A DNA stretch of 37,651 bases from Comamonadaceae bacterium. GTDB taxonomy: Bacteria > Pseudomonadota > Gammaproteobacteria > Burkholderiales > Burkholderiaceae_C. Position numbers and translations under genes: made by a program. The notes under the pieces are model-generated. The model made no database searches. It was not told the DNA's origin and saw only the letters and a list, made by a program, of their open reading frames with translations. Location of the stretch: positions 1 to 37,651 of the forward strand of contig JANXRP010000047.1 in the NCBI GenBank assembly GCA_025352965.1, read 5' to 3'. Numbering within the stretch: the stretch's first letter is position 1; the number at the start of each line of letters is the position of its first letter. This document shows, piece by piece, positions 3,782 to 36,928 of this stretch.

Positions 3782-4462
3782 TTAGCCCAGCAGCGCTAGT
3801 AAATCCGCAGGCTGATGCAGCACATGATCTGCGTTCCAAGTCGTCAGTTCATGTTCGCCTTCGTACCCCCAAGTCACGGCGATGGTCGTTATGCCAGCGG
3901 CGTGACCTGCGTCAATGTCGCGTTTATCGTCACCCAAATACCAGCAGCGTGCGGGGTCAACGTTTGCGAGGCGGCAAGCCTCTAAAAGCGGTGCTGGATG
4001 GGGCTTGGCGTGAGGTGTGGTGTCGCCGCTCACCACGGCGCAGCAGCCTTGCAGTACGGGCATCAGCGCGACGAGCGGATCGGTAAAGCGCTTTGACTTG
4101 TTGGTCACGATACCCCATAAGATGCCACGTGCCTCAATGCCTCGCAGCATGTCGTTTACGCCAGTAAAGGCGAAAGTGCGAGCATTGGCAGCACCAATCG
4201 AGGCTTCGTAATTGGCAAAAAATTCTTCACGCATCGCTGCAAAATCGGCGTGATCGGGTGCCATATCAAATGCTATTTTGAGCATGCCGCGTGCGCCAGC
4301 ACCAGCCATCGGACGATAGAGCGCATCTGGTAGCGAGGGCAGTCCACGCGCTAATCGCATTTTGTCGGCTGCGGCGCCTAAATCGGGTGCGCTGTCGATA
4401 AGTGTGCCGTCTAAATCAAAAAAAATCGCAGCAGGACGTGCGAGTTGTTTAGCGCCATTCAT
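3782..4462 (-). CDS. gph: Phosphoglycolate phosphatase-type HAD hydrolase
   Basis: HAD-superfamily phosphatase of 226 residues, the usual size for Gph. Motif I is DLDGT, with nucleophile D16 and acid/base D18. Motif II is the TNK at 120-122, motif III is K153 in HAKPHP, and motif IV is GDDKRD at 177-182. A helical cap domain lies at about residues 28-95. It would dephosphorylate 2-phosphoglycolate or a related small phosphosugar; a MupP-like (MurNAc-6-phosphate) role is also possible for this subfamily. Its ATG overlaps the ubiG stop by 4 nt (ATGA), so the two are co-transcribed, as is common in Burkholderiales (from memory). Confidence 0.88.
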   Translation of the reverse strand: MNGAKQLARPAAIFFDLDGTLIDSAPDLGAAADKMRLARGLPSLPDALYRPMAGAGARGMLKIAFDMAPDHADFAAMREEFFANYEASIGAANARTFAFTGVNDMLRGIEARGILWGIVTNKSKRFTDPLVALMPVLQGCCAVVSGDTTPHAKPHPAPLLEACRLANVDPARCWYLGDDKRDIDAGHAAGITTIAVTWGYEGEHELTTWNADHVLHQPADLLALLG

Positions 4463-5193
4463 ATTTTTTGCATCGCAATCATGTAATTCACGCTGGTGTT
4501 GTCATTCAAGGAATAGCGCTGGGTGATTGGGCTGTAGCCCAATCCCCGTGTGGCTTGCGGGGCAAGACCGCTACTTCGTGCCCAGCGCATGAGTTCGGCG
4601 GGCTGGATGAATTTGGCATATTCATGCGTGCCGCGCGGAATCAGTCCGAGTACATATTCCGCGCCCACAATCGCCTGTGTAAAAGATTGCAAATTGCGGT
4701 TGATGGTAGAAAAAAACACCCAGCCGTTTGGTTTTACTAAATCGGCACAAGCGCGGACGATGGCAGCGGGATCGGGCACATGCTCTAGCATCTCCATGCA
4801 GGTCACGATGTCAAACGATGCGGGCGACTCCTCTGCCAGCGCCTCCGCACTAATCTCACGATAACTCACGCTGGGCGTACCTGCTTCCAGCGCATGTAAC
4901 TGCGCAATTTGTAGTGATTCACGGCCTAAATCAATCCCTAAAACTGAAGCACCAATCGCATCTTTGTTGGCGAGGTGTGCCATGCTGTCGGCAAGAATAC
5001 CTCCGCCGCAGCCCACGTCCAGTATGCGTTTTCCCCTTAGAGAAGCCATAGAGTCAATCCAATCGAGGCGCAGTGGATTGATGGTGTGCAGTGCGCCAAA
5101 TGAGCGACTGTTGGTATTCCACCAATCGTGAGCGACATCGGTAAACTTAGCTAGCTCGGCAGAGTCGAAGTTTGGAGGGGCGGGTGCGTTCAT
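4459..5193 (-). CDS. ubiG: Ubiquinone biosynthesis O-methyltransferase
   Basis: SAM-dependent O-methyltransferase performing both O-methylations in ubiquinone synthesis (a 3-demethylubiquinone to ubiquinone step and an earlier 2-polyprenyl-catechol step). The protein is 244 residues, close to E. coli UbiG (240). The SAM-binding motif ILDVGCGGGILADS is at 57-70 and the conserved CMEMLEHVPDP follows at about 132-142. The NPLRLDWI segment near residue 39 is also a family signature. The frame is open for 40 codons further upstream, but MNAPAPPNFDSAELAKF aligns with the family N-terminus, so I chose 5193. The start lies only 16 nt from the divergently oriented FAD-oxidoreductase ATG. Confidence 0.95.
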   Translation of the reverse strand: MNAPAPPNFDSAELAKFTDVAHDWWNTNSRSFGALHTINPLRLDWIDSMASLRGKRILDVGCGGGILADSMAHLANKDAIGASVLGIDLGRESLQIAQLHALEAGTPSVSYREISAEALAEESPASFDIVTCMEMLEHVPDPAAIVRACADLVKPNGWVFFSTINRNLQSFTQAIVGAEYVLGLIPRGTHEYAKFIQPAELMRWARSSGLAPQATRGLGYSPITQRYSLNDNTSVNYMIAMQKI

Positions 5194-5201
5194 GCTGTAA
5201 T
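5172..5201 (+). promoter_or_regulatory. Candidate sigma-70 promoter for the lipid operon, implying a leaderless mRNA
   Basis: TTGGAG (5172-5177) and TGTAAT (5196-5201) are separated by 18 nt and resemble -35 and -10 boxes. Transcription would begin at about 5208-5210, directly at the ATG at 5210, which has no Shine-Dalgarno in front of it. The boxes lie across the 5' end of the divergent ubiG gene. This is a pattern match by eye only. Confidence 0.35.
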
Positions 5202-5209
5202 TGTCTCTT

Positions 5210-6529
5210 ATGAACCATAAACAAACGATGTGCGAGGTTGCTGTGGTCGGCAGCGGGATTGCGGGTCTTTCCGCCGCTTGGCATTTGGCGCAAGATGTGC
5301 GGTGCAAGGTCACGCTGTATGAGTCCGAGTTGCGCCCTGGCGGTCACGCGCATACGGTGGATGTCACGATTGGCAGAAAAACCTTTGGCGTGGATACGGG
5401 GTTTTTGGTCTTCAATCACAAAACCTATCCTGGGCTCACGCCATTTCTTGAGCACCTAGGTGTGGTGACAGCGCCATCCGATATGGGGTTTTCTGTGCAA
5501 GTTGGGAAGTCTCTTGAGTGGGCGGGCAATAGCCTATCGAGCGTTTTTACCCAGCGCAAAAACTTGGCTAACCTTCGTTTTTGGCGAATGCTGCAAGGCA
5601 TGCTGCGCTTCAATAAAGCTGCCACAAGCTTTGCGCTAGCGCCACCCAACACCACGCAAACCTTGGGCGAATATCTGGTTGCCAATCGATACAGTGCCGA
5701 GTTGCGCGATTGGTATTTGATCCCGATGGCGGCGGCCATTTGGAGTTGCCCGACCGAGACCATGCTGGCGTATCCGATGGCGACGTTCTCGCGCTTTTGC
5801 CATAACCACGGACTCTTGCAAATCACGAATCGTCCCCAGTGGTACACAGTGCAGGGCGGCTCCCGACATTACGTGAATAAAGTGCTGGAGGCCTTATCCA
5901 TTAAGGGTTGTGAGCTACACCTGGGACAAGCAGTGACGAAGATTGAGCGCAGGCTTAGCAAGGGTGATGCTGGCGTTACCGTGCATACAGCAACGGGCTC
6001 AGAGCGTTTTGATGCCGTCGTTGTGGCGACGCATTCGGATCAAGCGCTTCGCTTGCTGGACGCGCCAACCGAGGGCGAGCAGCGTATTTTGGGAGCGATT
6101 CGGTATCAACCCAACCTTGCCGTGCTACATACAGATCGTTCGGTGCTGCCTAGTCATTCGAGGGCTTGGGCGGCGTGGAATTACGAGACTCAATCTAGTG
6201 GCACTCATCCAAACAGTCAGCGCGTTTGCCTGCACTATTTGCTCAACAAACTACAGCCATTGCCTGTGGGGTTGGACACGCCCGTGCTGGTGAGTTTGAA
6301 TCCGCTGGGCAAGATAGACCCTGCCAAAGTGATCCAAACGTTTGACTATGACCATCCCGTATTTGACAGTGCGGCTATTGCGGCGCAGCAAGCGCTGCCA
6401 AGCATTCAAGAGGATAAGGCGGGAGGCGGCATCTGGTTTGCTGGCGCGTGGGCGAATTACGGATTTCATGAAGATGGCTTCCAGTCGGGCAGGTCGGCTG
6501 CACAGGCGTTGTTGGCTGGGTTGGCATGA
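5210..6529 (+). CDS. FAD-dependent oxidoreductase (amine-oxidase fold, COG2907-like)
   Basis: Predicted FAD-binding oxidoreductase of 439 residues from the ATG at 5210. The N-terminal Rossmann motif GSGIAGL is at residues 14-20, followed by a YESELRPGGHAHT segment that contacts FAD in amine oxidase-like enzymes. The C-terminal FAGAWANYGFHEDGFQSG block is the second FAD-contact region. Proteins of this family sit next to DUF1365 and a CFA-synthase-like methyltransferase in many proteobacteria, as here, which points to modification of membrane fatty acids; the reaction is not established from the sequence. TTG at 5201 or ATG at 5228 are alternative starts. The stop overlaps the next gene by 4 nt (ATGA). 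Confidence 0.88.
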   Translation: MNHKQTMCEVAVVGSGIAGLSAAWHLAQDVRCKVTLYESELRPGGHAHTVDVTIGRKTFGVDTGFLVFNHKTYPGLTPFLEHLGVVTAPSDMGFSVQVGKSLEWAGNSLSSVFTQRKNLANLRFWRMLQGMLRFNKAATSFALAPPNTTQTLGEYLVANRYSAELRDWYLIPMAAAIWSCPTETMLAYPMATFSRFCHNHGLLQITNRPQWYTVQGGSRHYVNKVLEALSIKGCELHLGQAVTKIERRLSKGDAGVTVHTATGSERFDAVVVATHSDQALRLLDAPTEGEQRILGAIRYQPNLAVLHTDRSVLPSHSRAWAAWNYETQSSGTHPNSQRVCLHYLLNKLQPLPVGLDTPVLVSLNPLGKIDPAKVIQTFDYDHPVFDSAAIAAQQALPSIQEDKAGGGIWFAGAWANYGFHEDGFQSGRSAAQALLAGLA

Positions 6530-7383
6530 AGCCCTCTTTAACAGCAGATGTTGCGCTTGAGTTTGGCTTTGGCGTGACGCGTCACAAAAGGCTCTGGCCG
6601 AAAGAAAACAGCTTCGAGGTGGGCAGTGTGTTTGTGCGTCTTCCTATGCGGACTATTGCCTCGCAGCCCGCATCCCGATTGGCTTTTGGGCTATTTGGTC
6701 TGAACAAGCCCAGCCCGCTTGGCTTTGCGGACAGTGACCATTTTGAGCGTCACAAAACGCACGGTAGCGCGTTGGCGGCACTCGACAAACTGCTAGTTGA
6801 GCAGGGCATCACGTCTTGCACGGGTGAGCAGGCGGGCGAGGTGTGGCTACACACGTTTCCGCGTGTGCTGGGCTATGCGTTTAAACCCGTGAGCTTTTGG
6901 TTTTGTCACGACAGCAGTCATGTGCTGCGCGCTGTGGTGGTTGAAGTGCACAACACCTTTGGCGAGCAGCATAGCTATTTGCTGCATCACAAAGACGGCT
7001 CGCCGCTTTTGGATGGGCAAATGATGGTGGCACAAAAGGTGTTTCATGTCAGTCCGTTTTTCCCTGTGCGCGGTGAGTATCGCTTTAGATGGCATATCGG
7101 AGCGACCGATTTGAATCCAAACCGCTCGGTCGTGCGTATTGACTATATGGACGCGCACCACCATCCCGAGCAACCACATGACATCACGCTGTCGACCAGT
7201 ATTGCTGGACGGCATGTGTCCGTGACGGTTTTGAGTAGCCTGCGCGTCTTGATCGGGTATCCCTTTAGCGCCTTGATGGTAGTCTTGCGGATACATTTTC
7301 AAGCGCTCAAGCTATGGTGCAAGGGTGCGCATTTTTATCGCTTGCCAAGCAAGCCTTCTACCGATGTCACGCACAGTCAATGA
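6526..7383 (+). CDS. DUF1365 family protein
   Basis: Protein of 285 residues matching the DUF1365 family, recognised by the N-terminal HKRLWPKENSFEV (about 20-32), the central GYAFKPVSFWFCHD (116-129) and conserved HVSPFFPV and PFSALMVVLRIHFQALKLW segments. The biochemical role is unknown. It is regularly found between a COG2907 FAD oxidoreductase and a CFA-synthase-like methyltransferase, and that linkage suggests a part in making or handling modified acyl chains. It starts inside the stop of the preceding gene (ATGA) and its last 20 nt overlap the likely start of the next gene, so translation is probably coupled. Confidence 0.88.
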   Translation: MKPSLTADVALEFGFGVTRHKRLWPKENSFEVGSVFVRLPMRTIASQPASRLAFGLFGLNKPSPLGFADSDHFERHKTHGSALAALDKLLVEQGITSCTGEQAGEVWLHTFPRVLGYAFKPVSFWFCHDSSHVLRAVVVEVHNTFGEQHSYLLHHKDGSPLLDGQMMVAQKVFHVSPFFPVRGEYRFRWHIGATDLNPNRSVVRIDYMDAHHHPEQPHDITLSTSIAGRHVSVTVLSSLRVLIGYPFSALMVVLRIHFQALKLWCKGAHFYRLPSKPSTDVTHSQ

Positions 7384-8545
7384 ACGCATTATTTTTGGAA
7401 TGTTGGAGAAACTCCAGCACGGGACATTAACACTCACAGCGCCTAGTGGCAAGGTGTATCCATTTGGCACGGCTCAAAGCCTTGATCCATATGGCTTGTC
7501 GGCCGATCTCCAGATTTTGGACAAGCAGGTCTACAGCGATATCTTGCGTGGTGGCGATATCGCTTTTGCTGAAATGTTTATGCACGGCAAAGTGACCACG
7601 ACGGATTTGCCGTTACTACTCAAACTTTTTGTCAAAAACCGTCAAGCGATTGAGGCTGCGCTGCATGGTAGTTGGTGGGGCGTGCTATTAGATCGTTTGC
7701 TGCACGTCTTCAGGCGCAACACCAAGCGCCAAGCGCGAAAAAACATTGAGGCGCATTACGATTTAGGCAATGATTTTTATAAGCTGTGGTTAGACCCTAG
7801 CATGACCTATAGCAGTGCATTGTTTTTGGGTGCTGACGTTTCTTTGCCAGTGGCGCAAGAAGCCAAGTACCAACGCGTGCTGGGGCAGCTTGGGAACGCC
7901 AAAAATATTCTGGAAATTGGCTGCGGCTGGGGTGGTTTTGCAGATGTGGCAAGCGCAGCAGGACGACGCATCACGGGGTTGACGCTCTCGACCGAGCAGT
8001 TGAACTACGCCAATGAGCGAATCGCCAAATTGGGACGCGCGGAGGCAGCTGATTTGAAATTGCAAGACTACCGCGACGAATCTAATCAATATGACGGCAT
8101 TGCCAGCATCGAAATGTTTGAAGCCGTCGGTGAGGCCTATTGGCCATCGTACTTTGCGTGCGTCGCGCGTAATTTGAAAGCGGGCGGTAGAGCCTGTATC
8201 CAAAGCATCACGATTCGCGACGAGCTGTTTGAGCGTTATCGCAAGGGAACAGATTTTATTCAGCGCTATATTTTTCCTGGCGGTATGTTGCCAAGCCCGA
8301 GCGTCTTTGCGCAGGTCGCATCCAGCCATGGCTTGCGCGTGATTGAGACGTTTGAGTTTGGCGCTGACTATGCGCGAACGTTGGCGGTATGGCGAAGTCA
8401 TTTCTTAGCTAAATTGGACGAGGTGCGCGCGCTGGGATATCCAGATAAATTTATCCGTATGTGGGATTTTTATTTGGCGTATTGCGAAGCAGGCTTTGAG
8501 TCGGGTGATACCAGTGTGATGCATTTCACGCTAGAAAAAGCGTGA
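7364..8545 (+). CDS. Cyclopropane-fatty-acyl-phospholipid synthase-like methyltransferase
   Basis: SAM-dependent methyltransferase of the CFA synthase family, 393 residues, expected to act at the membrane on unsaturated acyl chains of phospholipids. HYDLGNDFYKLWLD (131-144) and the SAM-binding ILEIGCGWGG (182-191) are family signatures, and the C-terminal YLAYCEAGF (about 370-378) is conserved. A GTG at 7325 would add 13 residues but overlaps the DUF1365 gene by 59 nt; the ATG at 7364 (MSRTVNERI) overlaps it by 20 nt and is preferred, with the ATG at 7400 a further option. Whether the product is a cyclopropane ring or a methylated or furan precursor cannot be told from sequence. Confidence 0.9.
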   Translation: MSRTVNERIIFGMLEKLQHGTLTLTAPSGKVYPFGTAQSLDPYGLSADLQILDKQVYSDILRGGDIAFAEMFMHGKVTTTDLPLLLKLFVKNRQAIEAALHGSWWGVLLDRLLHVFRRNTKRQARKNIEAHYDLGNDFYKLWLDPSMTYSSALFLGADVSLPVAQEAKYQRVLGQLGNAKNILEIGCGWGGFADVASAAGRRITGLTLSTEQLNYANERIAKLGRAEAADLKLQDYRDESNQYDGIASIEMFEAVGEAYWPSYFACVARNLKAGGRACIQSITIRDELFERYRKGTDFIQRYIFPGGMLPSPSVFAQVASSHGLRVIETFEFGADYARTLAVWRSHFLAKLDEVRALGYPDKFIRMWDFYLAYCEAGFESGDTSVMHFTLEKA

Positions 8546-8555
8546 TGATGTAGCC

Positions 8556-9338
8556 ATGAGCTTCAACCCCAAAATCAAAGCCACCGATTGGCAAGGCAAA
8601 AGCATCTGGTTGATTGGCGCGTCCACGGGCATTGGGGAGGCGTTGGCGCGACGACTCTCTAGCCTTGGTGCGCAGGTCATCTTGAGCGCGAGACATGCGG
8701 AGCGTTTGGCGGCTCTCTCAAACGAGCTACCACGCTCTAGCCCATTAGCAATGGACTTTACCGATAGTAAGGCTGTAGAAGCCATATGGCATAAGGCTTG
8801 CGAGGCATCTGCGCCAAGCGCTTTGCCTGATATGGTGATTGTGAATGCGGGTAGCTACGAGCCGATGCTGGCGCAGGATTTTGATCTTCAGCGTGCCAAA
8901 CAGCAGTTTGAGGTTAACGTAGGGGGCCCTCTCAATGTGCTGGCTGAGGTGCTGCCTGCGTACACGGCGGCCAAGCGTGGGCATGTGGTGCTGGTCTCCA
9001 GCGTGGCGGGTTATCGTGCACTGCCCAAAGCCTTGGTGTACGGCGCTAGCAAGTCGGCGCTGAGTTATATGGCGGAGACGCTCTATTTGGAGCTAGCAAA
9101 CAAGGGTGTTGCCGTGACGCTGGTGTGCCCAGGGTTTGTCAAAACGCCGCTCACCGCCGACAATGATTTCGACATGCCAGCACTCATTTCGGCCGCGGAG
9201 GCAGCAGAGCAGATTGTGCGTGGACTTGCCAAAGGTGAGTTTGAAATTCATTTCCCCAAACGGTTTACGCGCTTCTTAAAAGTGCTGGGTTGGCTGCCGC
9301 GCAGTATTTATTTCAAACTGGTGAGAAAACTTTTATGA
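8556..9338 (+). CDS. Short-chain dehydrogenase/reductase
   Basis: Classical SDR of 260 residues. It has the cofactor motif GASTGIGE (21-28), the structural NAG (97-99) and the catalytic set S149, Y162 and K166 (YxxxK in VYGASK). The basic residues after the first strand (SARHAER) favour NADP(H). The C-terminal hydrophobic stretch (about 238-258) with arginines may associate with the membrane. It starts 10 nt after the methyltransferase gene and ends in a 4-nt overlap with the NTF2-like gene, so it belongs to the same operon. The substrate is unknown; by context it is a lipid or lipid-derived carbonyl or hydroxyl. Confidence 0.9.
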   Translation: MSFNPKIKATDWQGKSIWLIGASTGIGEALARRLSSLGAQVILSARHAERLAALSNELPRSSPLAMDFTDSKAVEAIWHKACEASAPSALPDMVIVNAGSYEPMLAQDFDLQRAKQQFEVNVGGPLNVLAEVLPAYTAAKRGHVVLVSSVAGYRALPKALVYGASKSALSYMAETLYLELANKGVAVTLVCPGFVKTPLTADNDFDMPALISAAEAAEQIVRGLAKGEFEIHFPKRFTRFLKVLGWLPRSIYFKLVRKLL

Positions 9339-9787
9339 ACTCAATTTTGAATATCGACACTGCTGCAGACCATATCCGACAAGGCTTTGAAGGCCTCACG
9401 CTGGCTGGCGTCGATGCGCTTGTCGAGCTGTATGCGGGCGATGCAAGGTTCAAAGACCCGTTTAACGATGTGCAAGGGCGCGGCGCGATTGCGCACATCT
9501 TTAGTCACATGTTTAGTCAAGTGGATGAGCCCAAGTTTGTAGTCACGGCATTGATTGCCCAAAACGATGCGCTGGGTACTTTCCCGCAAATTTTTATGCG
9601 CTGGGACTTTTCGTTTCTAGCTCGCGGTAGGTTACAGACGATTCGCGGTGCGACGCATTTTGAATTGAATGCGCAGGGTCTTATTAGCTTGCACCGCGAT
9701 TATTGGGATGCTGCTGAAGAGCTATACGAAAAGATTCCCGTGTTGGGCAGTTTGATGAGGTGGTTGAAATCTAAATTGAAGGCATAA
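9335..9787 (+). CDS. NTF2-like (SnoaL-type) fold protein
   Basis: Small protein of 150 residues. The pattern DALVELYAGDARFKDPFNDVQGRGAI followed by alternating beta-strand segments is typical of the NTF2/SnoaL superfamily, cone-shaped folds that act as isomerases, hydratases or binding proteins. The catalytic role is unknown. The frame is open from a TTG at 9290 inside the SDR gene, but the ATG at 9335 overlaps the SDR stop as ATGA and gives the natural N-terminus. It is the last gene of the five-gene lipid operon and is followed at once by a terminator. Confidence 0.85.
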   Translation: MNSILNIDTAADHIRQGFEGLTLAGVDALVELYAGDARFKDPFNDVQGRGAIAHIFSHMFSQVDEPKFVVTALIAQNDALGTFPQIFMRWDFSFLARGRLQTIRGATHFELNAQGLISLHRDYWDAAEELYEKIPVLGSLMRWLKSKLKA

Positions 9788-9798
9788 AGTTCAGACGT

Positions 9799-9825
9799 AA
9801 AAAAACCTGCCGAGGCAGGTTTTTT
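9799..9825. terminator. Bidirectional rho-independent terminator between lipid operon and ompA-family gene
   Basis: Stem CCTGC/GCAGG with loop CGAG (9806-9819), flanked by seven A on one side and six T on the other. It can therefore work in both directions, as suits two convergent genes ending at 9787 and 9842. Confidence 0.9.
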
Positions 9826-9841
9826 GTGGATTCAAACAGGA

Positions 9842-10492
9842 TTAATTGTTTGAACGTGTACCCACAACTTCGATCTCAACGCGGCGGTTTTTAGCCTTGC
9901 CTTCGTTGGTCTTGTTGTCAGCAACTGGCCGCTTCTCGCCTTTGCCTTCGGTGTAAACGCGGTTTTTCTCAATGCCTTTAGACACCAAGTAAGCCTTGAC
10001 GGCTTCAGCGCGACGAACGGATAGCGATTGGTTAGATGCGTCGCTACCATCAGAGTCAGTGTGACCCACGGCAATGATGACTTCTAAGTTGATCGCTTTA
10101 ACTTTGCTGGTCAAATCGTCAAGCTTGGCTTTGCCGTCAGCTTTAACAACTGATTTGCCAGAGTCAAAGAAAGCGTCAGCAGCGTAAGTTACTTTAACGG
10201 CAGCAGGAGGAGCGACTGGAGCTGGAGCCGAAGGTGCAGCGGCAGGTGCGCCTGCAGCTGCAGGTGCTGCGGCAGGTGCTGCATCTCTAGGAGCAACGGC
10301 ACCAGGTGCTGCTGCGATTGCGCCGTCGCAACCTGCAGTCGCAGTTGCTGGTGTCCAAGTACCGCTTCTCCAGCAAAGACTTTCAGCTCCGCTTTTCCAA
10401 GTTGGGCCAGTGCTGCTGCCCCAGTTTTGTGCGCTAGCACTTGCTGCGATGGCAACAGTTGCGAAAAGCATTGCTACTTTATTGAGTTTCAT
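9842..10492 (-). CDS. OmpA-family outer-membrane/peptidoglycan-associated protein
   Basis: Secreted protein of 216 residues. A signal peptide is clear at 1-21 (cleavage after ASASA). A short Cys- and Trp-containing segment (about 22-56) follows, then an Ala/Pro-rich linker (about 60-98). The C-terminal OmpA domain (about 100-214) contains GHTDSDGS near 143-150 and LSVRRA at 157-162, the peptidoglycan-binding pattern. There is no N-terminal beta barrel, so it is probably a periplasmic or lipid-facing anchor to peptidoglycan rather than a porin. The ATG is preceded by GAGGACTCACA. It is divergent from gyrA; in many Burkholderiales it is followed by ubiG and gph, but here the lipid operon intervenes. 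Confidence 0.92.
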   Translation of the reverse strand: MKLNKVAMLFATVAIAASASAQNWGSSTGPTWKSGAESLCWRSGTWTPATATAGCDGAIAAAPGAVAPRDAAPAAAPAAAGAPAAAPSAPAPVAPPAAVKVTYAADAFFDSGKSVVKADGKAKLDDLTSKVKAINLEVIIAVGHTDSDGSDASNQSLSVRRAEAVKAYLVSKGIEKNRVYTEGKGEKRPVADNKTNEGKAKNRRVEIEVVGTRSNN

Positions 10493-14366: not shown

Positions 14367-15256
14367 TGAAAAAATTCAAACAGCTCGGGCTGATTGGCTG
14401 CGGCATGATGGGCGGCTCGTTCGCATTGGCGCTTAAGCGGGCTGGGTTGGTTGAGCGCGTGGTGGGTTACAACAAATCACCTAGCAAAACTGAGACTGCC
14501 AAGCGAATGGGAATTATTGATGACGCTGCCGCTTCCATTTTGCAGGCCGTCATGGGGTCGGATTTGGTTTTGATTGCAGTCCCTGTATCAGCCACTTTTG
14601 ACGTTTTGAAATCCGTGCAGTTTGGTTTGAATAAGGAAGCGCTCATCTTAGATGTGGGATCAACGAAGCAAAGTGTGATTCAAGCGGCCGAAAGCGTTTT
14701 TGGCGCACTGCCATCTCATTTCGTACCATCTCACCCGATTGCAGGCAAAGAGCAAGCAGGAATAGAAGCAGCAGACGCTGATTTATATGTGGGTAAACGT
14801 GTCATTTTGACGCCAACAGAACTTACCGATAGTGGTGCTATTGCGAATGCAATTGCCGTATGGAAATCACTCGGGATGAGTGTTTCGCAAATGACGTCCA
14901 CTGAGCACGATGCGGTCTTTGCCGCCGTGAGTCATTTCCCGCATTTGCTAGCGTTCGCCTACATGAATGGGCTTGCGGGTCAAACCGAGGCTCGGCAATT
15001 TTTGCAAATGGCGGGCCCTGGGTTTAAAGATTTCACACGCATTGCGGCGGGCGATCCAGAGCTATGGAGCGATATATTTTTGGCAAATAGCCAAGAAATC
15101 CTGAACCAATCGGCTGCCATGTCGTTGAGCTTAAAGAAATTAGAAGATGCAATGCGCTTGGGCAGTCCGCAGACTTTGAAAGAACTCATTGCCACGGCCA
15201 GTGCGCTTCGTGGCGGTTGGACACTCAGTAACAAAAGTGCTGTTGATGATGTTTGA
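14366..15256 (+). CDS. tyrA: Prephenate dehydrogenase (TyrA family)
   Basis: NAD(P)-dependent oxidative decarboxylation of prephenate (or arogenate) in tyrosine synthesis. The protein has 296 residues, a dehydrogenase-only form without a fused chorismate mutase. The cofactor motif GCGMMGG is at 11-17, and [11 protein letters not shown] (about 121-131) and the [11 protein letters not shown] segment are conserved in the substrate pocket. The ATG overlaps the pheA stop. The hisC gene often found between pheA and tyrA in Burkholderiales is absent. The stop lies inside the first codons of the aroA-cmk gene. Confidence 0.93.
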
Positions 15257-17237
15257 CACTGCATTTTTAGATGTTCCGCCGCTGCAAGCCGTGACTGGAA
15301 CTGTTCGTTTGCCGGGCTCCAAAAGCATTTCTAACCGCGTACTGCTACTCGCAGCGCTGTGCGAAATGGCGGGTGATGAGCCAACGCAGATTCACGATTT
15401 GCTCGATTCTGACGATACGCGCGTGATGATTGCGGCATTGGCACAGCTCAAAGAAAACTCAAACGCGACAAAAAAACTGTTTTTAGGAAATGCTGGCACA
15501 GCGATGCGACCGTTGACGGCAGCGCTAGCCTTGCGTGGCGGTCAAGTGGGGGGCTATGAGTTGTCTGGTGTGCCGCGCATGCACGAGCGCCCGATTGGCG
15601 ATTTGGTCGATGCGCTGCGTTTGCTGGGTTGCGACATTCAATACCTAGGAAACGAAGGCTTTCCGCCGCTCAAAATTGGCGAGCCAAAACTGAAGCTGGA
15701 TGCGCCGATTCAAGTGCGTGGTGATGTTTCCAGCCAGTTTTTGACGGCCTTGTTGTTGGCGTTGCCCTTGGTAGCGATGCAGGATATTCATGTCGATGTG
15801 GTGGGTGAGCTGATCTCTAAGCCCTACATCGACATCACGATCAAGCTTTTGGCACGTTTTGGCGTGACAGTGCAGCAGCAAGGCTGGAGCCGATTCACCA
15901 TTCCTGCGGGTTCAAAGTACACGTCGCCTAAAGAAATTTACGTTGAAGCGGATGCTTCGTCTGCTAGCTATTTTGTGGCGCTTGGTGGGCTGGCGGCTAT
16001 GGCTGATAAGCCGCTACAGATATTGGGTGTGGGTGCAGATTCGATTCAAGGCGATATCAAATTCATAGAGGCTGCGGCGCAAATGGGCGTGCAGGTGAAG
16101 TCCGAGGCTAATAGCCTGACCGTTTGGCGAGCCGAATGGTCAAAAGCGACGGGTTTCTTGAAGGCTATTGACCTCGATTGCAATCACATTCCTGATGCTG
16201 CCATGACGCTGGCTGTGATGGCGCTGTATGCCGACGGCACAACGACGCTTCGCAATATCGCCAGCTGGCGCGTTAAAGAAACCGACCGCATTGCGGCCAT
16301 GGCGATCGAGCTACGCAAGCTAGGTGCAACGATTGAAGAGGGCGCGGATTTCATTCGCATCACCCCTCCTGCAAGCCATACTGGATGGCGCTTTGCGAGC
16401 ATCCATACGTATGACGATCACCGCATGGCGATGTGCGCATCGCTTGCTGCATTCAACCCAGCTGGCGTGCCCGTGCGCATCGAAGATCCTAAATGCGTGG
16501 CAAAAACTTTCCCCGATTACTTTGAAGCGCTGTTTTCGGTTGCGCAAACCGATGCTAAAAATATCCCCGTGATTTGCATTGATGGCCCCACGGCCTCGGG
16601 CAAGGGCACGCTGGCATCTTTAGTTGCCAAGCAACTGGGCTATCACTATCTCGATTCGGGTGCGCTGTATCGTTTAGTTGGCTTTGCGGCTAAGCAAGCG
16701 GGTGCGAGCTTGGATGATGAGGCTGCCGTTGCCACCATCGCTTCGCAGATCTTGGTGGATTTCGATGGTGATCGCGTCAGTCTTGATGGTATTGACGTAT
16801 CGGACGATATTCGCTCGGAAGCCTCTGGAATGTTGGCCTCCAAGGTGTCAGCCTACCCATCTGTGCGCGAGGCGTTGTTTAATTTGCAATTAGACTTTAG
16901 GCGACTGCCGGGTCTTGTGGCTGATGGTCGTGATATGGGGACGGTAATTTTCCCCGAAGCCCCGCTCAAAGTCTTTTTGACGGCAAGCGCGGCAACCAGA
17001 GCCGATCGCAGGTACAAGCAGTTGATTTCTAAAGGAATTTCTGCTAATATCGAGGGTCTTCGCGCAGACCTTGAGGCACGCGACGCTAGGGATCAATCTC
17101 GTAGCGCCGCTCCCCTAGTGGCTGCCAAAGACGCGTTGCAGCTGGATAACTCCAATCTTACGATTGAAGGCTCCGTTACTCAAGTTCTTGAGTGGTGGAA
17201 CAAGTTATCTGGTGGCGATGCACCCAGCCAGCTTTAG
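15249..17237 (+). CDS. aroA-cmk: Fused 3-phosphoshikimate 1-carboxyvinyltransferase / cytidylate kinase
   Basis: One uninterrupted frame of 662 residues joining two enzymes. Residues about 1-432 are EPSP synthase (AroA), which condenses phosphoshikimate with [11 protein letters not shown] near the N-terminus, the [16 protein letters not shown] loop, the [10 protein letters not shown] motif and DDHRMAMC. Residues about 438-662 are CMP kinase with the P-loop [11 protein letters not shown] and a [15 protein letters not shown] segment. Each half has normal length. The ATG at 15249 (MFDTAFLDV) fits the family N-terminus; the adjacent ATG at 15246 is equivalent, and a long extension to 15189 inside tyrA is not supported. 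Such fusions are known in some Burkholderiales. Confidence 0.95.
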
Positions 17238-31405: not shown

Positions 31406-34400
31406 TTAAGCAGCAACAGCAGCTTTAGATTTGTCTTTTGCCGGTGTGGCCAAGGCCTTTGCCTTCGCCGCCGCCATTTCGCCCAGCGCCCGCTTGTATT
31501 CGTTCGGAAACACTTTGACGAACTTGGTCCGCGCCGTATTCCAGTTATCCAAGAGTTCGCGTGCGCGCTTGCTACCTGTCCAACGATGATGATCCTCTAA
31601 CAACGTTTTAAGCTGCACTTCGTCTGCCAAGCCCTTATGCCATATGGCTTTGTCGAGTGTCGTTTCTTGCTCTTTGGCTGTCAGAACTGCTCCCATGCTG
31701 ACCATCGCCGTGTTGCAACGCTCGGCAAATGTGCCGTCTTCATCGTACACATAGGCCAAGCCACCACTCATGCCTGCGGCGAAGTTGCGTCCTGTTTTGC
31801 CAAGCACCGCGACCGTGCCGCCCGTCATGTACTCGCAGCCGTGGTCACCCGTGCCTTCTACAACGGCGGTTGCACCAGATAGACGTACTGCAAAGCGCTC
31901 GCCTGCTACGCCGCTAAAGAACGCTTCGCCGCTGGTAGCGCCGTACAGCGCGGTATTGCCCGTCGTAATGTTCTTGGTAGGGTCACCTCTAAAGTCGATG
32001 CTGGGGCGTACCACCACGCGTCCTCCCGAGAGGCCCTTGCCTGTGTAGTCATTGGCATCACCGATGAGGTACAGCGTGATGCCTTTTGCGAGGAATGCGC
32101 CAAACGATTGACCGCCTGTGCCCTCCAACTGGATGTGGATGGTGTCGTCGGGCAAACCTTCAGGACGTGCTTTGGTCAGAGCCCCAGATAGCATCGCACC
32201 GACCGAGCGGTTGACGTTACGCGTTTGCTCGATAAATTTGACTTTTTCGCCGCGCTCAATCGCTGGTTTCGATTTTTCAATCAAGATGTTGTCGAGAGCT
32301 TTGGTCAGACCGTGGTTTTGATTTTCAATGTGAAATTTCGCCACAGTTGCAGCAACGTTTGGCACGGCCAACAAGCGCGAGAAGTCCAGCCCTTGTGCCT
32401 TCCAGTGCGAAATACCTTTTTGCGTATCGAGTAAATCAGCACGACCAATCAAGTCATCAAACTTGCGGATACCCAGCTGCGCCATGATTTGGCGTGCCTC
32501 TTCGGCGATGAAGAAGAAGTAGTTCACCACGTGTTCTGGCTTGCCTGCAAACTTTTGACGCAGAGTAGGATCCTGCGTGCAACGCCCACAGGGCAGGTGT
32601 TCAGGTGGCATTTGCGCATCATGATGCAGCCCTCGACCACCAGCGGCGCGGTCGCAAAACCGAACTCGTCTGCGCCAAGAAGCGCACCAATCACCACGTC
32701 GCGCCCCGTCTTCATTTGACCATCGGCTTGCACGCGGATGCGGCTTCGTAGGCCATTCAGGACAAGGGTTTGCTGGGTCTCTGCCAGCCCAATTTCCCAA
32801 GGGCTTCCCGCGTGTTTGATGGATGACCAAGGCGATGCGCCTGTGCCGCCGTCGTGCCCTGCAATCACCACGTGATCGGCTTTGCACTTGGCAACGCCTG
32901 CGGCAATCGTGCCGACGCCAATTTCAGAGACGAGTTTGACGCTGACATCGGCATGCGGTGCAACGTTTTTCAAATCGTGAATCAGCTGCGCCAAATCTTC
33001 AATCGAATAAATGTCGTGATGCGGCGGAGGGGAGATGAGACCCACACCTGGCACGGAGTGGCGCAGCTTGCCGATGTACTCAGTCACTTTGCCGCCTGGC
33101 AATTGCCCGCCCTCGCCTGGCTTGGCACCTTGCGCCATCTTGATTTGGATTTGATCGGCGCTTACCAAATATTCCGCCGTCACGCCAAAACGACCCGATG
33201 CGACTTGCTTGATTTTGGAGCGCATAGAGTCACCCGCGTTCAAGGCGTAATCGACTTCAAAGACTTCTTTGCCCAAGAGGTCGGACATCATCTGACCTTG
33301 CTTGATGGGGATGCCTTTGAGTTCTTGGCGATAACGCGCGGGGTCTTCGCCGCCTTCCCCTGTATTGCTCTTGCCGCCAATGCGGTTCATGGCGACAGCC
33401 AGCGTAGCGTGGGCTTCGGTGGAGATGGAACCCAGCGACATCGCACCTGTGGCAAAGCGTTTGACGATGTCTTTGGCGGGTTCCACTTCATCGACCGAAA
33501 TAGCTTTGGATGGATCGACTTTGAACTCGAACAAACCGCGCAGCGTCATGTGGCGCTTGCTTTGGTCGTTGATAATTTGCGCGTATTCTTTGTACGTGTT
33601 CCAGTTGTTGGCACGTGTGCTGTGCTGTAATTTTGCAATCGCGTCAGGCGTCCACATGTGCTCTTCGCCGCGCGCGCGCCAAGCATATTCGCCGCCTGCG
33701 TCTAACATCGAAGCTAGCACGGGGTCATCGCTGAACGCGGCTTTGTGTGTGCGAATGGACTCCAAGGCAATCTCAAAAATACCAATACCTTCGACGCGGG
33801 TGGGCGTGCCTGTGAAGTATTTGGCAACGGTCTCGGTGTTGATACCAATCGCTTCAAACAGCTGCGCGCCGCAGTAACTCATGTAGGTAGACACGCCCAT
33901 TTTGGACATGATTTTGGAGAGCCCTTTGCCAATCGCTTTAACGTAGTTGTAAATCGCTTTGTCGGCTGACAAGTCACCCGATTGACCTTGGTGCATGTCA
34001 ACTAAAGTCTCCATCGCTAAATACGGGTGAATCGCCTCTGCGCCGTAACCTGCCAGCACGCCAAAGTGATGCACTTCGCGTGCAGTGCCTGTCTCGACAA
34101 CGAGGCCTGCCGTGGTGCGCAGGCCTTCGCGGATCAGGTGCTGGTGAATGGCGGAGAGTGCCAAAAGTGCTGGGATGGCAATCTGCGTGGGCGTGATCGC
34201 ACGGTCGCTGATGATGAGAATGTTGCTGCCCGATTTGATTGCGTCCACGGCTTCGGCGCAAAGCGATGCCAGCTTGGCTTCTACGCCTTCGTGTCCCCAA
34301 GCCAATGGATACGTGATGTCCAGCGTGCTGCTCTTGAATTTGCCTTGCGTGTGCGCGGCAATGTCGCGTAATTTCGCCATGTCGGCAAAATCCAAAATTG

Positions 34401-36126
34401 GTTGCGACACCTCTAAACGCATGGGCGGGTTGACTTGGTTGATGTCCAGCAAGTTGGGCTTAGGACCAATGAAGCTGACCAGCGACATCACAATCGCTTC
34501 GCGAATGGGGTCAATCGGTGGATTGGTCACCTGCGCAAACAGCTGTTTAAAGTAGCTATAGAGCGGTTTGTTTTTGCTCGATAACACAGCTAGTGGGCTG
34601 TCATTGCCCATCGAGCCAATGCCTTCTTCGCCATTGGCAGCCATAGGCGCCATGAGGAACTTGATGTCTTCTTGGGTAAAGCCAAAAGCTTGTTGACGGT
34701 CAAGCAGCGCGGCTGCTGCGGAAGCAGGCGCAGCTGGCGTAGAAGTTGCACGGGCATCGGACACGTCGTCTAACTTGATACGCAGATTTTCAATCCACTG
34801 TTTGTACGGCTTGCTGTTGGCGAGATTGGCTTTGAGCTCCTCGTCATCAATCATGCGACCTTGTTCAAGGTCAATCAAAAACATCTTGCCAGGCTGCAAA
34901 CGCCATTTGCGAACGATCTTGCTCTCGGGCACGGGTAGCACGCCTGACTCGGAGCCCATGATGACGAGATCGTCATCGGTAATGCAATAGCGGCTGGGTC
35001 GCAGGCCATTCCTATCAAGGGTTGCACCAATTTGACGACCATCGGTAAACACGATAGAGGCAGGGCCATCCCACGGCTCCATCATGGCGGCGTGGTATTC
35101 GTAAAACGCTTTGCGGCGCTCGTCCATCGTGGTGTGTTGCTCCCACGGCTCGGGGATCATCATCATCACGGCTTGCGAGAGCGGATAGCCAGCCATGGTG
35201 AGCAGCTCTAAGCAGTTGTCGAAGGTGGCGGTGTCGGATTGGTCTGCAAAGCTAATCGGGTAGAGCTTTTGCAGGTCGGCTGCTAGGACGGGGGACGACA
35301 TCACGCCTTCACGCGCTTTCATCCAGTTGTAATTGCCTTTGACGGTGTTGATCTCGCCGTTGTGCGCGACATAGCGATACGGGTGAGCTAGTGGCCACTC
35401 GGGGAAAGTATTGGTGGAGAAGCGTTGATGCACAAGGCCTAGCGCCGAGACGCAGCGCGGGTCTTTCAAATCAAGGTAATAAGTGCCAACCTGATCGGCC
35501 AGCAGCAATCCTTTGTAAATCACGGTGCGGCTGGACATGCTGGGTACGTAGTACTCGTGGCTGTGCTTGAGCTGCAAGTTTTGAATCGCTGCGCTGGCCG
35601 TTTTGCGGATGACGTACAGCTTGCGTTCTAACGCATCTTGCACGATGACATCGTTGCCGCGACCAATAAACACTTGGCGCAAGATAGGCTCTTTCTCGCG
35701 CACGGTTGGCGACATCGGCATCTCGCGATCCACAGGCACATCGCGCCAACCTAAAAACACTTGTCCTTCAGCCTTGATAGCGCGTTCCATCTCTTGCTCG
35801 CAGGCCATACGGCTGGCGTGCTCTTTGGGCAAGAAAATCATGCCGACACCGTATTCACCCGACGGGGGCAGGGCGACACCTTGCTTTGCCATGTCTTCGC
35901 GGTAGAGTGCATCAGGTAGCTGAATCAAAATGCCAGCGCCGTCGCCCATGAGCTTATCTGCGCCCACTGCACCCCGATGGTCAAGATTCTCCAAAATCTT
36001 AAGCGCGTTGCTCACAATCGCGTGCGACTTTTGCCCCTTGATGTGTGCCACAAAGCCCACGCCGCAAGCGTCGTGCTCGTTGGCGGGATCATAAAGACTG
36101 GGTTGGTTAAAGGTTATTTCAGACAT
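31406..36126 (-). pseudogene. gltB: Glutamate synthase (NADPH) large subunit, interrupted by a one-base frameshift
   Basis: Large subunit of ammonium-assimilating glutamate synthase. The frame from the ATG at 36126 (MSEITFNQP; good GAGGTG Shine-Dalgarno) has the glutaminase nucleophile C21 in DACGVGF, the central domain, and the FMN domain up to the [3Fe-4S] cysteines C1167, C1173 and C1178 ([12 protein letters not shown]). Just after CPVGVA the frame is lost and stops at 32524. The remaining family sequence ([12 protein letters not shown] onward, through the GXGXG C-terminal domain) continues in another frame to 31406. Restoring one base gives 1,573 residues, normal for GltB. Both parts look unscarred, so the change is recent or a sequencing error; I cannot tell which. 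Confidence 0.9.
32575..32582 (-). other. Frameshift site in gltB (one base missing)
   Basis: The minus strand reads GGCGTTGCACGCAGGATCC, translating as G-V-A-R-R-I. Inserting one A (GTTGCAACGCAG) gives the family sequence G-V-A-T-Q-D-P-T-L. The missing base would be one of a TT pair on the plus strand near 32578. It is not in a long homopolymer. Confidence 0.88.
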
Positions 36127-36183
36127 AGCAGCACCTCGCAAAAATGAGTAGTTGCCCAAGGATAAACCGTTTTAATGGAGTTA

Positions 36184-36229: not shown

Positions 36230-36928
36230 TTAACTAGGGACAGGTTTGTTTGGTCCTCGACCGACTTTCATTTTTGTGGTGCGGCGTGAGGTGCGTGCTT
36301 GCAATGTGGTGATAAATGCTGCATCACCTAATGCCCAGCCTTTGAATGCGGATTCGGTGAGCTCTGCTTGATGTTGCGTAGCCAGCCCACTTGCCACTAA
36401 TTTTGAGTACGCCGTTTCGCGGGCAAACGGCGTATTACCTAACGTCCACAGCAGTGGATGGGGCGTGATGAATGGAATGGTTTGTTGCCCAATATAGCAT
36501 TTGTGGCTGGACCACTGAAAATCTACAGGTGAGTTGACCATGCCTGCTCGGACTGGATTCAGGTCGATATAGGTCATGCAAGTGAGTAAGTACTTATCGT
36601 CTTGAATGAGCGTGGACTTGTAACGTCCTTCCCATAGCGTGCCCGTTCGTTTGTGAAAATGATTGAAACTTTGCGCATAACGCTTGCCCAGCGCTTGCAT
36701 GAGATTCGGCACGCCCGAGTCATCTTGCGGTGTGAGCAGCAAATGTGTGTGGTTGTCCATTAGCACAAAGGCATGAACGGCCACGTCAAACTTGTCTGCA
36801 TACTCGGAAAGCCATGCCAGATAAGCCTTGCGGTCGTCATCTGAGTAAAAAATAGCTTGTCGATTATTCCCACGCTGAATCACGTGATGTGGGTAACCAG
36901 CCAAAGAGAGTCGGGGTTGTCGTGCCAT
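36230..36928 (-). CDS. REP-associated tyrosine transposase (IS200-like Y1 family)
   Basis: HUH-type single-strand DNA transposase of 232 residues. The HUH motif is H60-T-H62 in LMDNHTHLLL, and the catalytic tyrosine is probably Y84 in ALGKRYAQSFN. GTLWEGRYKSTLI and YIDLNPVRAGMV are strong family signatures, and the N-terminal PRLSLAGYPHHVIQRGNNRQ is typical of RAYT proteins. About 70 C-terminal residues, ending in a basic stretch, are variable. All key residues are kept and the frame is complete, so the protein may still act on its palindromes. It is flanked by such palindromes on both sides, 12 nt before its start and 4 nt after its stop. Confidence 0.93.
   Translation of the reverse strand: MARQPRLSLAGYPHHVIQRGNNRQAIFYSDDDRKAYLAWLSEYADKFDVAVHAFVLMDNHTHLLLTPQDDSGVPNLMQALGKRYAQSFNHFHKRTGTLWEGRYKSTLIQDDKYLLTCMTYIDLNPVRAGMVNSPVDFQWSSHKCYIGQQTIPFITPHPLLWTLGNTPFARETAYSKLVASGLATQHQAELTESAFKGWALGDAAFITTLQARTSRRTTKMKVGRGPNKPVPS

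Follow-up and report, generated by a model that had tools for sequence, protein, structure and literature searches.

In Rhodobacter sphaeroides, three proteins named UfaM, UfaD and UfaO (RSP2144, RSP1091 and RSP1090) suffice for synthesis of the furan fatty acid (FuFA) 9M5-FuFA, in which cis-vaccenoyl chains of phospholipids are converted to a methyl-branched alkene, then to a conjugated diene and finally to the furan acid (Lemke et al. 2020, PMC7380195). UfaD is described there as an NAD/FAD-binding desaturase and UfaO as a protein that carries DUF1365, with its oxygen coming from O2, and Rhodopseudomonas palustris RPA2571, RPA2570 and RPA2569 correspond to UfaD, UfaO and UfaM and perform the same steps (PMC7380195). 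The UniProt accessions given in PMC10940516 are Q3J4I7 for UfaM, Q3IYV7 for UfaD and Q3IYV8 for UfaO. Halomonas sp. YLGW01 possesses the three as consecutive genes, and its UfaM gave a methylated intermediate in E. coli (PMC12089945). The R. sphaeroides cluster RSP1091-1087 further holds a sugar/cation symporter (RSP1089), a hypothetical protein (RSP1088; the counterpart in P. syringae is termed a lipoprotein) and a short-chain dehydrogenase/reductase (SDR; RSP1087) (PMC7074977, PMC5507510), and deletion of RSP1087, RSP1088 or RSP1089 brought no detectable change in the fatty acid profile (PMC7380195). Here we evaluate a block of five genes at positions 5210-9787 of a 37,651-nucleotide (nt) stretch of a Comamonadaceae bacterium of the order Burkholderiales (assembly GCA_025352965.1, contig JANXRP010000047.1), the whole of which we call the window, and we read this block as very probably a compact FuFA operon of known kind, with a probability of roughly 0.86. 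Within the open-licence PMC literature, no paper was found that combined 'furan fatty acid' with 'Burkholderiales'.

A predicted furan fatty acid operon of five genes

The original prediction, made from the sequence by eye, had described five genes for an FAD oxidoreductase, a DUF1365 protein, a methyltransferase resembling cyclopropane fatty acid synthase (Cfa), an SDR and an NTF2-like protein, facing opposite to their neighbours. Profile searches confirmed the families and the sequence the arrangement, with all five on the + strand (Table 1). Pfam scores lay far above the cut-offs (215 vs 25 bits for PF07103, 262 vs 27 for PF02353, 137 vs 26.6 for PF00106 and 55 vs 27 for PF12680), and the window UfaD carries GxGxxG close to its N terminus. 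The genes are tightly packed, such that genes 1 and 2 and genes 4 and 5 each overlap by 4 nt (ATGA), genes 2 and 3 overlap by 20 nt if gene 3 begins at the ATG at 7364, and genes 3 and 4 do not overlap but are separated by a 10-nt gap. The same start of gene 3 opens the frame in two relatives (G003 and G004) among the five genus members examined, which are numbered G000 to G004 with G000 being the window genome. On its left the operon lies 16 nt from ubiG and on its right 54 nt from ompA, both of which are on the - strand.

Because the first three families form the complete UfaD-UfaO-UfaM set, a product can be predicted. We are confident by homology in the function of these three genes, and the three reactions and the product are predicted from that same homology. 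UfaM would methylate a mono-unsaturated acyl chain of a phospholipid at its double bond (in R. sphaeroides the chain is cis-vaccenate) to give a methyl-branched trans-alkene, UfaD would remove hydrogen to yield a conjugated methyl-diene, and UfaO would insert oxygen derived from O2 and close the furan ring to an acid of the 9M5-FuFA type, with the ring presumably acting as a membrane antioxidant. The original prediction of lipid modification, and of kinship with the singlet-oxygen and furan fatty acid genes of Rhodobacter, is thus supported by gene families and order, and where it had left the product unnamed, a set that suffices in R. sphaeroides (PMC7380195) now points to a furan acid.

Conservation of gene order was evaluated across 22 related loci chosen for carrying UfaO or UfaD, three of which are from the same genus and have the window arrangement or its ortholog. 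In all 22, ufaD-ufaO-ufaM are contiguous and in the same order with ufaD first, and in 20 of them the same five families follow one another in the same order, which is beyond chance. The three genes also keep this order in 5/5 loci of family code f228, and in family code f235, which we took as Rhodobacteraceae, ufaD-ufaO is followed after zero to several genes by an SDR in 14/14 loci, with ufaM present in the cluster in 3 of the 14. The window UfaD is 37-41% identical to the UfaD of 11 f235 loci, and the window UfaO 35-40% identical to 33 UfaO proteins from named Rhodobacteraceae-group records, these being 33 of the best 80 loci in an alignment scan of contigs for Rhodobacteraceae-type UfaO; no Cereibacter sphaeroides was among those best 80. 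H20, H149 and H257 of UfaO are invariant when the window protein is aligned with these relatives.

Further evidence comes from the methylase. In 90 operon methylases aligned to E. coli Cfa (local-pair alignment), position 236 is E in 90/90 and position 266 is Q in 89/90, with E239, I268 and Y317 kept in 90/90 and position 139 being S in 73, A in 12, C in 3 and G in 2. An earlier automatic MAFFT alignment of 83 methylases had given weaker counts (E 81, Q 80, S 70). Positions 236, 266 and 139 are G, H and C in E. coli Cfa as well as in the second, separate Cfa of G002, and the L. acidophilus Cfa carries G and H at 236 and 266. The residue H266 of E. coli Cfa serves as a bicarbonate ligand (PMC11387697); in the window UfaM this ligand is replaced by Q, the ligands E239 and Y317 are kept, and G236 and C139 are replaced by E and S. 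In the window genome ufaM is the only full CFA-type gene, the search otherwise returning a 27-bit cross-match to ubiG. The E236/Q266 pattern favours methylation without ring closure, as in UfaM. The pair 236E/266Q offers a simple sequence test that may separate UfaM-type methylases from true cyclopropane synthases of the same Pfam family.

Table 1. Positions in the window of the operon genes, their neighbours and the intergenic elements at both ends.
Feature	Positions	Strand	Remarks
ufaD-like FAD oxidoreductase (putative acyl desaturase)	5210-6529	+	439 aa; PF01593, NAD_binding_8
ufaO-like DUF1365 protein (predicted furan-ring oxygen insertion)	6526-7383	+	285 aa; PF07103
ufaM-like SAM methyltransferase, CFA family	7364-8545	+	393 aa from ATG 7364; PF02353 CMAS
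SDR, RSP1087 counterpart by cluster place	8556-9338	+	PF00106
SnoaL/NTF2-like protein	9335-9787	+	150 aa; PF12680 SnoaL_2
ubiG	4459-5193	-	TIGR01983 above cut-off
ompA	9842-10492	-	NF045787 above cut-off
Spacer between the divergent ubiG and ufaD start codons	5194-5209	.	16 nt; identical in G000, G001 and G003 (sequence comparison)
A-run/hairpin/T-run palindrome between convergent snoaL and ompA; likely two-way terminator	9799-9825	.	read from the sequence; unlisted by the terminator scan

Position between ubiG and ompA

A survey of ubiG matched 36 of 40 genomes, and the best 30 places, the window's included, were taken as loci. In 18 of these 30, ompA directly adjoins ubiG and shares its strand; in 3 (G000, G001 and G003) the operon separates the two; and in 9 no ompA is found within the fetched flank. 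For the same-family loci (n=21) the arrangement is contiguous ompA-ubiG in 16, operon between in 3 and neither seen in 2, and outside the family the ompA-ubiG neighbourhood was found in 2/9 order-level loci. These counts support the original prediction that the position between ompA and ubiG is derived; the accompanying statement, that ompA-ubiG contiguity is usual in Burkholderiales, holds within the family (16/21) but is too broad for the order.

Close relatives do not all share the place of the block, as same-genus genomes G002 and G004 both possess an empty ompA-ubiG site and carry an operon elsewhere. The one in G004 (L033) is orthologous, with UfaD at 82%, and the one in G002 (L031) is far more distant, with UfaD at 51%, and lies beside a TetR gene. 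In G004, whose site is empty, a terminator-like hairpin with its T-run follows ompA, and about 15 nt then lead up to the ubiG start. The window operon, by comparison, has such a hairpin on one side and the start of ubiG on the other. The place of the operon is therefore derived and the change of place is real. The simplest account would be that, in the lineage of G000, G001 and G003, the operon moved once and came to lie between the terminator of ompA and the start of ubiG.

The TetR gene of G002 (L031:3820-4452) encodes a divergent regulator where 11/22 related loci have a divergent gene resembling LitR, a regulator exchange at the same operon.

Origin of the block

The original prediction had taken the block to look like an insertion. 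In a strong sense this would mean horizontal acquisition from outside the genus or family, which would agree with the operon's place differing between G000, G001 and G003 on one side and G004 on the other. It would also agree with a concatenated tree that sets the window clade outside a family clade that includes G002 (Shimodaira-Hasegawa-like approximate likelihood-ratio test, SH-aLRT, 100), with a log-likelihood 20.8 better than when the genus is held together, and with UfaD matches outside the genus, which among those listed from 299 family genomes reach 58% for the best-scoring and 60% at the highest, vs 82-84% within the genus. However, one genus clade is not rejected by the approximately unbiased (AU) test (p-AU 0.105, concatenated), and for UfaD alone the tree with the genus held together is even better (p-AU 0.788), with the same-family locus L107 (G159) joining the window clade there. 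The window and G002 lineages both sit on long branches, the GC (49-55%) and third-position GC (GC3; 54-61%) of the five genes fall inside the spread seen for 12 other genes of the window (48-57% and 41-67%), and no direct or inverted repeat pair joins both junctions. Composition like that of the neighbours, the repeats and the trees, in which vertical phylogeny is not rejected, thus do not establish a foreign source of the block, and we consider transfer rather unlikely.

The first concatenated tree was built from loci with sufficient length in each of the three genes; 87 qualified, and most of the 27 UfaD-centred family loci L083-L109 did not. Of these 87, the second tree retained 44. It excluded L172, L175 and L180 (same-family, in another clade), L028 and L029 as distant, L160 as a second locus from the L122 genome, every phylum-level row and, with seven exceptions, the class-level rows. 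The tree of UfaD alone had 71 rows and excluded the loci just named, L027, sequences shorter than 330 aa, every phylum-level row and, with five exceptions, the class-level rows.

Reduced gene content and regulation

Evaluating the accessory genes across the 22 related loci revealed an SDR in 20, SnoaL in 20, DUF3833 in 18, an MFS_2 transporter in 17, a chalcone-isomerase-like (CHI-like) gene in 16 and a divergent LitR-like gene in 11, the name LitR being used here for the MerR/B12-binding domain pair after PMC9758184. Of the two loci that have neither SDR nor SnoaL, L049 ends near a contig end, and its genes may be cut off there. As a further observation on this cluster, a same-family genus (L107 and L282 of G159, L283 of G242) has the full eight-gene form with LitR, and the G159 UfaD groups with the window clade.

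Relative to this fuller form, the window operon is both moved and reduced, being without the CHI-like gene, MFS_2 and the divergent LitR, and G000 and G001 are also without the DUF3833 lipoprotein. G003 and G004 keep DUF3833 between ufaM and the SDR; in G000 and G001 it was found neither at the locus nor elsewhere, and G002 gave no match (the controls G003 and G004 matched). The sister pairing of G000 and G001 in the concatenated tree (SH-aLRT 88) fits one loss of DUF3833, and the UfaD tree, which pairs G000 with G003 at 82, does not fit one loss.

The regulator search covered ChrR and LitR. ChrR (TIGR02451), the anti-sigma factor of the RpoE-ChrR (ECF11) singlet-oxygen regulon, was not found in G000-G004, with the Caulobacter control matching, and LitR was found neither beside the operon nor in G000-G004, with 5/5 comparison genomes matching, one of them the query's own. 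The assemblies set limits to these absences, which are not absolute (completeness is 96.7% for G000, in 203 contigs, and only 78% for G003). The ECF11-type motif, sought in the window only as exact matches to the pattern TGATCC-N15-18-CGTA (PMC5507510), gave no match. A promoter and terminator scan of 4900-9900 listed 2 promoter-like and 4 terminator-like sites, which is below the shuffle means, and none upstream of ufaD. Since only 16 nt separate ubiG and ufaD, a promoter for ufaD would have to lie partly within ubiG or else yield an almost leaderless message. Any account of how the window operon is regulated is speculative. The locus suggests that an antioxidant pathway may persist with five genes, in a new place and with no detectable ChrR or LitR.

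Accessory genes and the fold of UfaO

The SDR and SnoaL genes are tightly coupled to the operon, each being found in 20/22 loci, and 18/20 SnoaL proteins share an FKDPFN motif, as might be expected if the two added further acyl-chain steps, such that the product went beyond the plain furan acid. We regard such steps as doubtful, because R. sphaeroides showed no detectable change in its fatty acid profile when RSP1087, the SDR of this cluster, was deleted (PMC7380195); no SnoaL is listed in RSP1091-1087, so the deletion bears on the SDR alone, and for the SDR the acyl step put forward in the original prediction is not supported. The two proteins may rather be conserved accessory members that act after or beside synthesis, speculatively on oxidised furan products. 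Their PDB matches were generic reductases for the SDR and two weak matches for SnoaL.

A furan ring that quenches singlet oxygen gives rise to reactive dicarbonyl lipids. One could accordingly picture the five-gene unit as a complete make-and-mend module that runs independently of the known regulators of the singlet-oxygen and light responses, in which UfaM, UfaD and UfaO would make the furan lipid, the SDR and SnoaL would reduce or rearrange the dicarbonyl lipids, and UfaO would be a calycin-like barrel oxygenase, possibly binding haem like nitrobindin; we give this picture as a whole little credence.

The UfaO model (predicted local distance difference test, pLDDT, 79; predicted template modelling score, pTM, 0.80) is built largely of beta strands, of which about ten are long, and has a long helix at the C terminus. 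By sequence, UfaO had no match in the PDB, and Foldseek results were weak (best E 0.017, none <= 0.001). A VIA search with the model gave Z <= 7.3, with rows that include a designed barrel, nitrobindins, Rv2717c, YwiB and the OlmO/OssO spirocyclases, the nitrobindin matches being weak at Z of about 6-7. The model thus suggests a common barrel arrangement, which is no functional proof, and a site for haem or another metal is no more than a lead. What cofactor UfaO (DUF1365) uses and what the conserved SDR-SnoaL pair does are the real questions that this operon raises.

The protein families themselves reach well beyond the genus. With the window genome counted throughout, UfaD-like proteins were found in 238/299 family genomes (E <= 1e-60), and UfaO-like proteins in 28/40 close relatives (E <= 0.001), 68/369 class genomes (E <= 1e-20) and 151/398 phylum genomes (profile, E <= 1e-20). 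The UfaO family is therefore widespread, these being counts of UfaO-like proteins and not of the whole pathway.

Weighing the furan reading

Several points weigh against reading the block as a FuFA operon. Orthology rests on family, gene order and Rhodobacteraceae-group relatives at 35-41% identity, and the furan product is predicted from genes alone, with chain length and ring position beyond what such evidence reaches. DUF1365 is taken as a FuFA marker, with its restriction to FuFA makers being an assumption, and the E/Q pattern is defined on operon methylases and not on characterised UfaM proteins. The deletion result for the R. sphaeroides SDR leaves two of the five genes unexplained, and the scan of 4900-9900 recognised no consensus promoter for ufaD.

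That the CFA-like enzyme instead makes cyclopropane fatty acids, which the FAD enzyme and DUF1365 protein would modify (for example to cyclopropenes), was rejected on the residue pattern and strikes us as very improbable: its membership of PF02353 with best NCBIfam matches to cyclopropane synthases, its standing as the sole full CFA-type gene of its genome and the older annotation of RSP_1090/1091 as cyclopropane/cyclopropene proteins (PMC3818230, PMC7074977) are outweighed by NCBIfam Cfa scores far under the cut-offs (251 vs 600, 232 vs 400 and 201 vs 650), by the replacement of H266 and G236, which is seen in 89/90 and 90/90 operon methylases, respectively, by PMC3818230 itself deeming that annotation apparently unjustified and by the methyl-branched alkene and diene found instead in PMC7380195.

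The FuFA reading thus turns an operon with an unnamed product into a testable furan fatty acid prediction in a Burkholderiales genus.

Other features of the window

Elsewhere in the window, the gene for the glutamate synthase large subunit (31406-36159, -) is split into two overlapping frames, with the Pfam Glu_synthase profile matched over 2-329 in the 1211-aa frame and over 325-369 in the 493-aa frame, which reflects either a minor error of assembly or a genuine frameshift. An IS200-like Y1 transposase (PF01797; 232 aa; 36230-36928, -) lies between gltB and a gene resembling aroB by eye. EPSP synthase (PF00275) and cytidylate kinase (PF02224) are fused in one open frame (15189-17237, +) that follows gyrA, pheA and tyrA. 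A tmRNA gene (1-312, -), cut by the window end, is the sole Rfam match in the window (RF00023).

Comparison with known systems

E. coli Cfa shares PF02353 and the residues E239, I268 and Y317 with the window UfaM, and differs in that its G236, H266 and C139 are E, Q and S there. The light-induced LitR/phrB/ufaM region of Pseudomonas is similar in bringing together an SDR, an FAD oxidoreductase and UfaM with hypothetical proteins, and differs in its LitR-type control and adjacent photolyase (PMC9758184), whereas LitR was not found in the five genomes of the window genus. Another known system is the eight-gene cluster ufaD-ufaO-ufaM-CHI-MFS_2-DUF3833-SDR-SnoaL of related Burkholderiales, often with a divergent LitR-like gene, which shares the five genes in the same order with the window in 20/22 loci; the window is without LitR, the CHI-like gene, MFS_2 and DUF3833, and its operon sits between ubiG and ompA. 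Unlike the R. sphaeroides pathway, the window locus is without MFS and DUF3833, with ChrR not found in the genome, and it unites all three pathway genes with SDR and SnoaL as one five-gene unit. With R. sphaeroides and R. palustris it has the same three families in common, its ufaD-ufaO-ufaM order being that of RPA2571-2570-2569 and its SDR standing in the cluster as in RSP1091-1087.

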